Notes under the pieces: generated by a model
Database searches by the model: none
Seen by the model: the letters and a program-made list of their open reading frames with translations, nothing else
What the model was told of the DNA's origin: nothing
Source: a bacterium
Lineage (GTDB): Bacteria; UBA9089; CG2-30-40-21; SBAY01
Assembly: GCA_040757115.1 (NCBI GenBank)
Contig: JBFLYA010000042.1
Coordinates: 6,395-23,235, forward strand
Direction of reading: 5' to 3'
DNA length: 16,841 nucleotides
Translations under genes and position numbers: made by a program
Part shown: piece after piece, positions 1,147 to 16,001 of the stretch
Layout: each line of letters starts with the position of its first letter
Numbering within the stretch: the stretch's first letter is position 1

Positions 1147-1279
1147 GTGTAAGAAGGGGGATAAGGGGATAAAGGAGATATGGAGATATCAGAGCTAAAG
1201 AAAAGGCAGATTTTAGAAAAGTGGAATTAGAATAATATCCCCTTATCTCCTTAATCTTCCTATCTCCTTTTCGGACACC
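1147..1279. repeat. Inverted repeat of GGAGATAAGG-type words
   Basis: The left arm (about 1147-1190) opens with GTGTAAGAAGG and continues with imperfect GGGATAAGG and GGAGATAT words. The right arm (about 1234-1279) contains the complement and ends in GGACACC. The same architecture, with the same GTGTAAGAAAGG start, recurs at 8956-9151. No coding potential is seen. Confidence 0.7.
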
Positions 1280-1402: not shown

Positions 1403-1610
1403 GTAACTATTCACCACGAAGGGTACGGAGAGCACGAAGTGAAATTTGATGAATTATCGAATAGAGTCATTGGATGCGCTATAGCGGTGCATCGAACTCT
1501 TGGACCAGGTTTGCTTGACACCGTGAAGAGTGATAATTCACAATTGACAATTCACCATTCACCATTATTAAGGAAATTTAGGGAAAAAATTGTGAATGGT
1601 GAATAGTTAC
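1403..1610. repeat. GTAACTATTCACC-bounded inverted-repeat element with GxxExxY remnant
   Basis: The left end GTAACTATTCACC (1403-1415) is matched by its exact complement GGTGAATAGTTAC at 1598-1610. The 208-bp interior carries the N-terminal part of a GxxExxY gene and an imperfect inverted CAATTCACCATTCACC motif. The right end stops 12 nt before the tRNA gene. The left end abuts another outward-facing copy, giving the perfect 11-bp palindrome at 1387-1411. Confidence 0.75.
1439..1606 (+). pseudogene. GxxExxY protein, N-terminal remnant
   Basis: Reading from GTG at 1439 the translation is KFDELSNRVIGCAIAVHRTL followed by GPGLL, the characteristic first 25 residues of GxxExxY family proteins (function unknown, about 125 residues). 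After this the frame continues into unrelated dispersed-repeat sequence (DTVKSDNSQLTIHHSP) and stops at 1606, after 56 codons. The GxxExxY core and C-terminus are missing. The frame is open upstream into the inverted-repeat arm, as GxxExxY genes often read through such arms. I regard it as a non-functional fragment. Confidence 0.8.
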
Positions 1611-3360: not shown

Positions 3361-3455
3361 TAGGGCTTCACGAAATTATAAACTAAGTAATCGGTTAAAT
3401 GGTAACTGGTAACTAATTACCATTCACCAGTTACCAATTACCAGAAATAAGGAGA
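3361..3455 (+). repeat. Dispersed direct repeat TAGGRCTTCACGAAATTA, copy 1
   Basis: About 95 nt, closely similar to 3841-3925 and exactly 480 nt apart. It consists of the opening TAGGGCTTCACGAAATTA, a run of GGTAACTGGTAAC words and their complements TTACCAATTACCAG, and an ending AAGGAG. In both copies this ending falls at the ribosome binding site of the next reading frame, here the GxxExxY fragment. Confidence 0.75.
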
Positions 3456-3465
3456 AAGGGAGAAG

Positions 3466-3549
3466 ATGGAGAAGTGGAGAAAAGAAGAGTTAAGTGATAG
3501 GATTATTAATGCCTGTATTAATGTCCATAAAAAGTTAGTCTCGTGTTGA
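3466..3549 (+). pseudogene. GxxExxY protein, second N-terminal remnant
   Basis: Twenty-seven codons starting MEKWRKEELSDRIINACINV and continuing HKKLVSC before TGA. The segment EELSDRIINACINVHKKL is the typical beginning of GxxExxY proteins, which would continue with GPGLLES. Here the frame turns into repeat sequence and stops at once. GGAG (about 3450) precedes the start. Only the first 20% or so of the gene is left, within the 3339-3826 repeat island. Confidence 0.7.
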
Positions 3550-3840
3550 ACAAATAACGCACGGAATTTGATTCTGGTAACTGGTGATTGGTAACTGGTA
3601 ATTAAATACCGTTCGGCTGAGCTCAGGACGAAACTATTTAACCAATTACCAGTTACCAATTATCCGTTTGCAGGTTACGAAACCTGATGATGCCCCGTGC
3701 AAAACTTACTCAACACGACATCAGGATTGATGTCCGAAGGGTGGAGCAAGAAAAAGTTTGAGCCAATTCTCCCTTTTCCCCATTTCTCCTTGTTTACACT
3801 TCTAATGTATAGCCCTGAACGGTTACAAAAATATTTTCAA

Positions 3841-3925
3841 TAGGACTTCACGAAATTAAAAGCAAGTAACTGGTAAATGGCAACTAATTACCATTCACCA
3901 ATTACCAATTACCAAATAAAAGGAG
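3841..3925 (+). repeat. Dispersed direct repeat TAGGACTTCACGAAATTA, copy 2
   Basis: Second copy of the 3361-3455 repeat, immediately outside the right terminus of the 3339-3826 island. Its last bases (AAATAAAAGGAG) supply the Shine-Dalgarno of the C11 protease gene at 3935. Confidence 0.75.
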
Positions 3926-3934
3926 GATAAAAAA

Positions 3935-5443: not shown

Positions 5444-5689
5444 GTAACCGTTTAGGTAATCCTTTACCGCAGAGACGCAGAGAAACAGAGAGGAAAATAT
5501 CTTTTTTTCGTGTTTATCGCGTTCTTCGGTGTTTAAAAAGGCTTAAAAACAGTTAGTCAAAAGTAAGTATTAAAAGATTAATAAACAACGAAAGCCTCGA
5601 GAGGCACACAAAAAAAGGAAATTTCTGTCTCTGGTGAATAGATTTTAATTTTTTCTCTGCGTCTCTGTGTCTCTGCGGTGAACAGTTAC
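5444..5689. repeat. GTAACC-bounded element with CCGCAGAGACGCAGAG arms (decayed GxxExxY element)
   Basis: The left end GTAACCGTTTAGG is followed by ACCGCAGAGACGCAGAGAAA. The right end carries the complement (CTCTGCGTCTCTGTGTCTCT) and finishes GCGGTGAACAGTTAC. The interior has no open GxxExxY gene. However, the sequence before the right arm (AATAGATTTTAATTTTTTCT, 5636-5655) equals the last codons, stop and arm of the GxxExxY element at 14592-14883, read from the other strand. It also holds a 62-bp perfect copy of 9165-9226. Most of the gap 5426-5789 is this element. Confidence 0.75.
5608..5669 (+). repeat. 62-bp perfect direct repeat, copy 1
   Basis: Identical over 62 nt to 9165-9226. It begins ACAAAAAAAGGAAATTTCTG and runs through GGTGAATAGATTTTAA into the CTCTGCGTCTCTGTG arm. 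It is the right half of a GTAAC-bounded element. Confidence 0.9.
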
Positions 5690-8879: not shown

Positions 8880-8929
8880 TTTTTTATCTCGCCCTATTTT
8901 GATAATTGGTAAATGGTAATTAAATATCG

Positions 8930-9166
8930 GTAACCGTTCAGGCTATATATCAAAAGTGTAAGAAAGGGGATAAGGAGATAAGAGTGATATGGAGATAAGA
9001 TAATAGAAATAGATTGAAATTTATAGAAATAGGTAGAAATTGATTGTGGAAAACAACAAATTTCCATAAATTTCTATTAGTTTCTATTAATTTCAATTTT
9101 TTTAATAATATCTCCCTATCTCCTTAATCTCCACATCTCCTTTTGTTACACCACCTGAACGCTTAC
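8930..9166. repeat. GTAACCGTTCAGG-bounded nested inverted-repeat element
   Basis: Outer ends GTAACCGTTCAGG (8930-8942) and CCTGAACGCTTAC (9154-9166) are complementary at 12 of 13 positions. Inside are GTGTAAGAAAGGGGATAAGG and further GGAGATAA words (8956-8999), paired with ATCTCCTTAATCTCC words ending GTTACAC (to 9151). The core has TAGAAATAGATTGAAATT-type words with their complements around 9000-9100. The whole element could fold into one long hairpin. It separates ybeY from the dgkA-PAP2 gene and has no coding potential. Confidence 0.75.
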
Positions 9167-9248
9167 AAAAAAAGGAAATTTCTGTCTCTGGTGAATAGAT
9201 TTTAATTTTTTCTCTGCGTCTCTGTGGCATCTTGCGGTGAACGGTTAC
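9165..9248. repeat. Right half of a GTAAC-bounded element (62-bp perfect repeat, copy 2)
   Basis: 9165-9226 is identical to 5608-5669. After a short divergent stretch it ends GCGGTGAACGGTTAC (9234-9248), the same terminus as at 5689 and 14883. The left half is missing; it abuts the right end of the 8930-9166 element. The rest of the gap to 9269 has only AACCAATTACCAATTA-type repeat words. Confidence 0.85.
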
Positions 9249-9269
9249 GCCATTTTAACCAATTACCAA

Positions 9270-9719
9270 TTATCCGTTTGCTGTAACCAATTTAAGTATT
9301 TCTTCCATTCTCACAACCATTGGTTCTTCTGGTAAATTCTGCGGGCTATGGTCATAGCCTAAAATATGCAATATCCCATGAATTAAAAGGATAGTCAGTT
9401 CTTTTTCAAAACTATGTTTATATTCCTTTGCCTGGCGCAAAACGGCATCCAGAGAGATAATAATTTCACCTAATAAGAGCCTATCCAAAAAGTTGATGCT
9501 TCCATTAATTTTTCCATAGCCAAAGGCTAAAACATCTGTTGGTTTATCTATCCGGCGGTATTCTTTATTTAACCTTTGAAGCAGTTCATCATCTCCTAAG
9601 ACAATACTTACCTCGCCATTTGAGATGCCTTCATATTTCAGGGCAGTTTTAACTATCTGTTTAATCCAATTTGCCTTGAACTTCTTGTTTATCTTGTTGA
9701 GAATTGACACCTTTAACAT
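9270..9719 (-). CDS. ybeY: Endoribonuclease YbeY (rRNA maturation)
   Basis: A 149-residue single-domain zinc metalloprotein that acts on rRNA 3' ends and in 70S quality control in the cytoplasm. The zinc motif HGILHILGYDH supplies His114, His118 and His124. KPTDVLAF (59-66) and GEIIIS (84-89) are the other family blocks. Length is typical. The start at 9719 gives the expected first strand (LKVSIL). It has GGAG about 10 nt upstream, and it overlaps the 3' end of the upstream 7TM-HD gene by 59 nt, indicating tight co-transcription. The position between pgpH and dgkA is the conserved arrangement in many bacteria. Confidence 0.97.
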   Translation of the reverse strand: MLKVSILNKINKKFKANWIKQIVKTALKYEGISNGEVSIVLGDDELLQRLNKEYRRIDKPTDVLAFGYGKINGSINFLDRLLLGEIIISLDAVLRQAKEYKHSFEKELTILLIHGILHILGYDHSPQNLPEEPMVVRMEEILKLVTANG

Positions 9720-14523: not shown

Positions 14524-14591
14524 GAAAAATTTAAGTAATTATTTACCCGGGTGAAGTGAGACAGACTTTTTTACACAATTTCTGCCATAAT

Positions 14592-14883
14592 GTAACTATT
14601 CACCGCAGAGACGCGGAGACACAGAGAAAAAATTAAAATCTATTGGCTATACGCTTAATTCCATCTCTTAGAACAGAAACATTAAAATTGATCAATAAAC
14701 CTATCCTTTTATTCATCATTTTTAGATAGGTTAAAAGTTGAGCTTCGTGAATCGGAAGTAGTTGCTCGACTGCTTTTAATTCTACGATAACTTTTTCTTC
14801 AACTAAAAGATCTATCCGGTATCCACAATCTAATTTAAATCCTTTTTTCTCTGTTCCTCTGCGTCTCTGCGGTGAATAGTTAC
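14592..14883. repeat. 292-bp element with 41-bp terminal inverted repeats and GxxExxY cargo
   Basis: The left end (14592-14632) and the right end (14843-14883) are inverted copies matching at 38 of 41 positions. Both read inward as GTAACTATTCACCGCAGAGA, then CGC, a GAG-containing stretch, and ACAGAGAAAAAA. Between them lies the C-terminal half of a GxxExxY gene on the minus strand, whose stop abuts the left arm and whose frame opens through the right arm. The element sits between two oppositely directed promoters. No transposase is present. Confidence 0.9.
14633..14845 (-). pseudogene. GxxExxY protein, C-terminal half
   Basis: Minus-strand translation gives KGFKLDCGYRIDLLVEEKVI, then VELKAVEQLLPIHEAQLLTY, LKMMNKRIGLLINFNVSVLR and DGIKRIANRF before the stop at 14633-14635. 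This is the conserved second half of GxxExxY proteins (restriction-endonuclease-like fold proposed for the family; function unknown). The first half, with the LSxxxIGAAxEVHxxLGPG block, is missing. The open frame runs instead into the inverted-repeat arm (NYSPQRRRGTEK) without a start codon. The coding part has no internal stop or frameshift, so truncation is recent or the fragment is maintained. Confidence 0.88.
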
Positions 14884-14901
14884 GCCATAATTATAAAATT
14901 C

Positions 14902-15654: not shown

Positions 15655-15839
15655 GTTATTCAGCCACGGATTAGCACGGAGAAAGAGCAGAGGGCAGAAG
15701 GCAGAGGGTAGAGGGCAGAAGGCAGAGGGCAGAGGACAACAGGAGGAAAAACCTTCAGCCTAATTACGGACACGGATACCGGACACGATTTACGAATTTT
15801 CAGTGTTTCATCTGTATCCATTTGTGGCTGAACAGTTAC
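15655..15839. repeat. Inverted-repeat element GTTATTCAGCCAC / GTGGCTGAACAGTTAC
   Basis: The left end GTTATTCAGCCACGGATT (15655-15672) and the right end GTGGCTGAACAGTTAC (15824-15839) are complementary apart from a small deletion. The interior holds an imperfect tandem of AGAGGGCAGAAGGC words (15688-15735) and rearranged CACGGATACCGGACACG words. It matches the GTAACYRTTCA terminus pattern of the other islands. No gene is visible here. From 15840 to 15987 I see only A+T-rich sequence and one weak short frame. Confidence 0.7.
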
Positions 15840-16001
15840 AGATAATTTTACATTTTGATATGTAATTTTTATATTTGCTTTTTGCATTTTTATCTTTGGA
15901 GGAAATTGATAAAAATAGAGGTTTTAAATACCCGCTTAAAAACTACAGTTTCCTATTTTTGCAGAACTCTACAACCTTAACAATAATGGAGGTGATGACC
16001 A

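Follow-up and report, generated by a model that had tools for sequence, protein, structure and literature searches.

What kind of element places half of a nuclease gene between two inverted repeats, and do the repeats belong to the gene? The question is raised by a 292-bp element (14592..14883, without strand assignment) in the window, that is, the whole 16,841-nucleotide stretch of bacterial DNA analyzed here. Comparison of its copies and of the corresponding locus in a sister species identified it as a mobile element, namely a GxxExxY module with an internal deletion. It is flanked by genes for an HIT-like and a DnaJ-like protein, one on each side. The left arm (14592..14632, plus strand) contains GTAACTATTCACC and iterations of CGCAGAGA, CGCGGAGA, and CACAGAGA, and has an IS66-like GTAAC tip, as found by repeat search and comparison with ISDge4 (PMC12898284). 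The right arm (14843..14883, minus strand), also located by repeat search, is the left arm inverted; the two 41-nt arms are complementary at 38 of 41 positions (93%), as the initial annotation had reported. Profile matches assigned the interior (14633..14863, minus strand) to the C-terminal half of a GxxExxY/PDDEXK_3 protein, covering about positions 46-115 of TIGR04256 (51-115 in the profile alignment itself), with scores of 85.1 bits for TIGR04256 (cut-off 35) and 82.3 bits for Pfam PDDEXK_3 (PF13366; cut-off 22; 4e-23).

The gene remnant had been described as abutting one arm with its stop codon, reading into the other arm as an N-terminal extension, and lacking its start region without being interrupted, and each of these points held. 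Its stop codon, which appears as TTA in the plus strand at 14633-14635, adjoins the left arm, the right arm translates in frame as SPQRRRGTEKK, and there are no internal stops. About the first 48 residues are missing, including the GxxExxY motif and E22, and the complete active site (E22, D62, E72-x-K74, Q86), which is kept by intact paralogues, is not present in the window copy. The nuclease is the sole ORF of the 292-bp element, as it is of full-length modules; no transposase is encoded, and the element is therefore not an autonomous insertion sequence, which requires one.

The source genome (G000, a 4.32 Mb draft in 462 contigs) contains six full-length copies of the 292-bp form, including that of the window, with 98-100% identity. 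The five further copies, together with the identical 8 bp outside both ends, showed that the element is not a chance arrangement. The same genome also contains, at C97 and C129, full-length 459-bp parents with an intact frame of 137 residues. By sequence comparison, the 292-bp form corresponds to the 459-bp form minus 167 bp at the gene's 5' end, the remainder meeting at a GAGAAAA|AAGGATTT-type junction. In the sister species (G005), one locus has the 292-bp form at the exact position where the source genome has the 459-bp form. The half gene of the initial annotation is thus not an ancestral half but a deletion derivative that later spread as a non-autonomous element. The 292-bp copy is a MITE-like passenger, a shortened copy of a wider module.

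The element moved recently by transposition, as demonstrated by 8-bp target duplications and by empty sites in the sister species, whose flanks were about 95-100% identical to those of the source genome at the compared sites. The window copy is bounded by GCCATAAT on both sides (14584..14591 and 14884..14891, both plus strand), and the sister species has a single GCCATAAT at the left flank of this site, followed by other sequence. Perfect 8-bp duplications occurred at 6 of 17 tip-bearing elements, including the window copy and a second element at 1403-1610, and mismatched pairings of flank 8-mers gave no match in 20,000 shuffles. Two of the duplicated sites were empty in the sister species, each with a single copy of the target (AATTTCGT and ACATTTTA). 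The duplication was rejected as a universal feature, being absent at 11 of the 17 elements. Among those that could be compared between the two species, two lie where 407 or 52 other bp stand in the sister genome, which suggests adjacent deletion or replacement; two others represent the same insertion, common to both genomes.

The ends point to the IS66 family. In ISDge4, a member of this family, the ends are GTAACTGCTCAGCA and the repeat is 8 bp long (PMC12898284), and IS66 insertions in Frankia are likewise accompanied by 8-bp repeats (PMC11946415). The 292-bp element carries GTAACTATTCACC at both ends, forming a terminal inverted repeat with a GTAA tip, and its 8-bp duplication and the empty sites in the sister species (outright at two sister sites, at the left flank for the window copy) are as expected of IS66-type MITEs; the GTAAC tips and 8-bp duplications thus fit IS66-family elements. 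The sole IS66 transposase found in the draft source genome lies between GTAACCGTTCAGG inverted ends and is interrupted by stop codons. The GTAACCGTTCAGG end occurs 642 times in this genome, versus 3 times for the reversed pattern. We infer that an IS66-type transposase acting in trans moved the tip-bearing copies, and such an enzyme is sufficient to account for the GTAAC-tipped copies in the source genome. Similarity to IS66-family (ISBst12-group-like) MITEs extends to the GTAAC-tipped inverted ends, 8-bp duplications, internal deletion, high copy number, and the broken related transposase in the same genome. Unlike such MITEs, the interior is not a deleted IS66 but a GxxExxY module with its own iterated arms, and GTAAC tips are missing from most GxxExxY modules elsewhere. 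At sampled loci of the source genome, on which genome-wide arm pairing is also based, GTAACCGTTCAGG sites belong to hundreds of short elements, often 170-550 bp apart, with varied interiors. Several contig ends lie close to GTAACCGTTCAGG ends, so these elements may break the assembly.

Other repeat elements occur in the window. The second GxxExxY-derived element (1403..1610, plus strand) has a CACGAAG-type left arm, an N-terminal fragment (KFDELSNRVIGCAIAVHRTLGPGLLD), and GTAACTATTCACC ends, and is bounded by the 8-bp target duplication CATTAAAT (1395-1402 and 1611-1618). A third remnant (1147..1272, plus strand) has GGGATAAGG-type inverted arms around the C-terminal tail of the L016 lineage (AKEKADFRKVELE followed by the stop codon); GGGATAAGG-armed GxxExxY copies (L016-L018; about 1124-1320 in the window) are bracketed by inverted CGACCTGTGAAATAGG, an outer end of a second type. 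A CGCAGAG-arm element without a gene (5444..5689, without strand assignment) has GTAACCGTTTAGG and GAACAGTTAC ends, and a one-arm partial copy of the same repeat family (9165..9248, minus strand) is identical to positions 5608-5669 over 62 bp. At 329-893, inverted arms of iterated GGGACTC units enclose a four-helix-bundle (S23-like) gene, which is located within a CRISPR-like array or at its end. The repeat of this array (GTAGGAAAATAAGACCTGATGAATAAGGGATTGCGAC) occurs five times between about 16 and 347, and partial copies of it are present at 788-812 and 901-925. Inverted iterated repeats with TGGTAAC and TGGTAATT units (3390-3930, 8899-8938, 9258-9281) resemble the arms around four-helix-bundle genes. 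At 15660-15887 and 15684-15739, a spurious-looking ORF consists of a repeat translation (LPSALYPLPSALCSF) over GGGCAGAAGGCAGA iterations, which are probably a further arm type.

The initial annotation had suggested that GxxExxY genes are the cargo, or the origin, of the inverted arms, and had given CCGCAGAGACGCAGAG as the arm motif. To examine intact genes, we searched 84,980 species genomes and retained the best 80 GxxExxY loci of one scan, a Bacteroidota-heavy set that also spans Planctomycetota, Acidobacteriota, Chloroflexota, Proteobacteria, Verrucomicrobiota, and others. Of these best 80, 77 were testable, and at 55 of them the inverted arms scored higher than the 99th percentile of controls with the same geometry within the same loci, a threshold that about 1% of controls pass. 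In a larger set comprising the scan loci, genomes of the source organism's own phylum, and additional copies taken from 23 named genomes, 140 of 173 GxxExxY genes lay between inverted arms (median score 39), versus 1 of 76 neighboring ORFs (median 18), so that flanking of intact genes was consistent. The distribution of the arms also followed the gene: across 60 Flavobacterium species, arm motif counts increased with GxxExxY counts (rho 0.60, uncorrected for phylogeny and genome size), and the 11 gene-less species held 5 arms in total versus 482 in the 49 others. CCGCAGAGACGCAGAG is a real arm motif but one of many, each GxxExxY lineage having its own.

The arms consist of three to four iterations of a unit of ~7 bp, the commonest being CRCNRAG, with starts mostly 8-10 bp apart; units of other lineages include C-R-C-N-G-A-T, CRCGAAT, ACAGGAT, and the G-rich GGAGAAA, GGATAA, and GGAAAA. 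Positions C1, C3, A6, and G7 are near-invariant. The two arms of a module differed at 9.2% of unit bases versus 34.7% of spacer bases (p=1e-30), a comparison in which left arms were chosen by motif pattern and the agreement of the right arm is the independent part. Between genomes, arm similarity rose with protein identity (Spearman 0.35; the highest of 200 permutations was 0.09). Arm pairs from the same genome were no more alike than between-genome pairs at equal protein identity, on which ground we rejected the reading that a house repeat spread throughout the genome had merely captured the gene. On a tree of 140 proteins, the arm classes required 30 changes versus 61 when shuffled, with none of 200 shuffles as low, and the G-rich class clustered across three genomes. 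The motif class thus tracks the protein tree and not the host genome. Shared descent of linked DNA contributes to this covariation, and deep clades still keep a class. The covariation could reflect joint inheritance of linked DNA instead of recognition.

Intact copies retain G19, E22, Y25, D62, E72-x-K74, Q86, and Y90, and substitution ratios indicate that the gene is under purifying selection (median dN/dS of 0.11 over 56 pairs). The predicted structure (pLDDT 96) was nearest to SSO0001, LHK-Exo, lambda exonuclease, and AddAB, with modest E-values (best 2e-3). The fold class is firmly predicted to be PD-(D/E)XK, Cas4/lambda-exonuclease-like, over ~120 residues, and the function is assigned more tentatively.

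The modules are present or absent as units at given sites. One intergenic site compared in 61 Flavobacterium species was empty (0-30 bp) in many, filled by a CACAGAG-armed GxxExxY module in some, by a different, CACGAATT-armed lineage in others, and by a CACAGATT-armed copy in one species; decayed copies also occurred. A second Flavobacterium site showed empty, filled, tandem, and arm-only states. Modules lay directly 3' of the preceding gene, which was co-directional in a ratio of 103:12 and whose stop codon was a median of 6 bp from the arm; the downstream neighbor was co-directional in a ratio of 64:35. Within tight biosynthetic operons (L170/L222 and L180/L228), presumably trpE-trpG and carA-carB as we read their sequences, GxxExxY modules follow the upstream stop codon immediately. 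Several modules of the source genome (L012, L014, L015, and L019), as well as modules in other genomes, have no IS66-like tips, and dispersed sister copies without GTAAC tips in the sister species lose homology at or near the arms. GxxExxY was not found among 50,697 phage records and was present in 8 of 72,556 plasmids; viral contigs were considered as the source of the L014 and L019 lineages, and none was found.

The same plan surrounds a second gene family. Genes of the four-helix-bundle family (TIGR02436), to which the S23 protein of 23S rRNA intervening sequences belongs, were present in 22 of 22 tested genomes, and 59 of 70 were enclosed by inverted arms that consist of iterated 6-8-bp units and have motifs other than those of GxxExxY. 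The arm architecture is therefore not exclusive to GxxExxY, and, since S23 modules encode no nuclease, arms do not require the GxxExxY nuclease. The proposal that GxxExxY is the cargo or origin of the repeats thus stands as regards consistent flanking but not as regards exclusiveness: GxxExxY is the owner of CRCNRAG-type arms and not the only source of such arms. These data suggest a module class broader than GxxExxY alone. S23 modules showed no arm-protein covariation below 50% identity, which counts against joint inheritance as the explanation of the covariation in GxxExxY modules.

We consider it fairly probable that the locus combines two layers, a MITE copy moved by IS66 and a selfish nuclease module with cognate arms. 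In the first layer, a 459-bp GxxExxY module lost 167 bp from the 5' end of its gene, and the 292-bp remainder (GTAAC...GTTAC) then transposed to at least six sites with 8-bp duplications, presumably through the action in trans of an IS66-type transposase. In the second layer, the parent would be a selfish module without a transposase, a single nuclease gene bounded by inverted arrays of a lineage-specific motif, present or absent as a unit and dispersed within genomes, whose position just after stop codons may cause little harm. Its nuclease would recognize the iterated motif as end DNA, a hairpin, or a single-stranded form and would process the module ends for propagation or retention, as suggested by motif conservation and protein-arm covariation. 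Judged from these sequence patterns, the arms most likely serve as the target of the module's own nuclease. The more general proposal, that GxxExxY modules form a widespread class of minimal selfish elements whose RecB/Cas4-like nuclease recognizes its own arms and drives spread without a transposase, and that at least two gene families, including S23, follow this plan, is a tentative one, to which we give somewhat less than an even chance.

If the modules and arms were instead ordinary MITEs moved by resident DDE transposases, the nuclease being inert or host-serving cargo, the IS66-like tips and 8-bp duplications of the young copies in the source genome would be expected, as would the second outer end type (CGACCTGTGAAATAGG) around L016-L018 copies. 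This explanation is rather unlikely, as tips are absent from modules in other genomes and from L012, L014, L015, and L019, tip-less sister copies cease to match at or near the arms, the nuclease is under purifying selection, and arm class follows the protein. An element acting at the RNA level, with arms that base-pair once transcribed and a gene-bearing loop that RNase III removes from the operon mRNA, making an insertion behind a stop codon harmless, would accord with the bias toward co-directional upstream neighbors with a nearby stop codon and with the shared architecture of the S23 family, which is known from RNase III-cut elements (PMC4990558). Arm mismatches, however, showed no excess of G-U-preserving changes (177 versus 161, p=0.41; 48 versus 67 for S23), so that G-U asymmetry lent no support to selection for RNA stem pairing, and complementarity was kept at motif positions but not in spacers; we consider this explanation improbable. 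Least credible, and very unlikely, is that slippage and template switching produced the arms secondarily around whatever gene had been inserted, without a specific partner. This would accord with the frequent occurrence of iterated units and near-palindromic solo hairpins and with the many unrelated units of S23 arms, but motif bases are kept while unit spacing varies between 8 and 10 bp, motif class is stable across deep protein clades, and hardly any control gene had arms.

With the preferred two-layer explanation, only the 292-bp copy belongs to a known kind, the MITE. RAYTs are HUH tyrosine transposases whose small gene is flanked by inverted short repeats with gene-less relatives scattered in the genome. 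GxxExxY modules share the single small DNA-processing enzyme gene, inverted short repeats, and scattered gene-less relatives, but the fold matches were to PD-(D/E)XK exonucleases and not to an HUH transposase, and the arms are iterated 7-mers, not REP hairpins. Free-standing homing endonuclease genes are small nuclease genes at fixed sites, with neither a transposase nor inverted iterated arms; they resemble the modules in gene type, presence or absence at fixed sites, and lack of a transposase, and differ from them in having no such arms and in the Cas4/lambda-exonuclease-like fold of GxxExxY. In 23S rRNA intervening sequences, the ends are complementary and are cut by RNase III (PMC4990558). 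Like the modules, they comprise one small ORF between complementary ends without a transposase, are patchily present, and reuse the same sites, and chromosomal S23 genes carry the same iterated-arm architecture; by contrast, GxxExxY is a nuclease whose arm motif follows the protein lineage, and its modules lie between protein genes and not in rRNA. The 292-bp element itself lies outside 23S rRNA and carries a PDDEXK_3 remnant, not S23. No description of the GxxExxY module and none of six arm sequences were found in the literature searched, which excluded most subscription papers and in which GxxExxY was mentioned in two papers and PF13366 in one. As the parent module is not an insertion sequence, a RAYT/REP system, or an rRNA intervening sequence, and no description was found, this class, occurring in very many bacteria, appears to be undescribed.

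These results bring GxxExxY and four-helix-bundle genes, both annotated in many genomes without known function, into one kind of module. The arms are a source of spurious protein termini and of repeat families, and such modules account for many dispersed repeats of the source genome. The lineage-linked motif makes it testable whether a nuclease acting on its own flanking motif may allow a gene to spread without a transposase.
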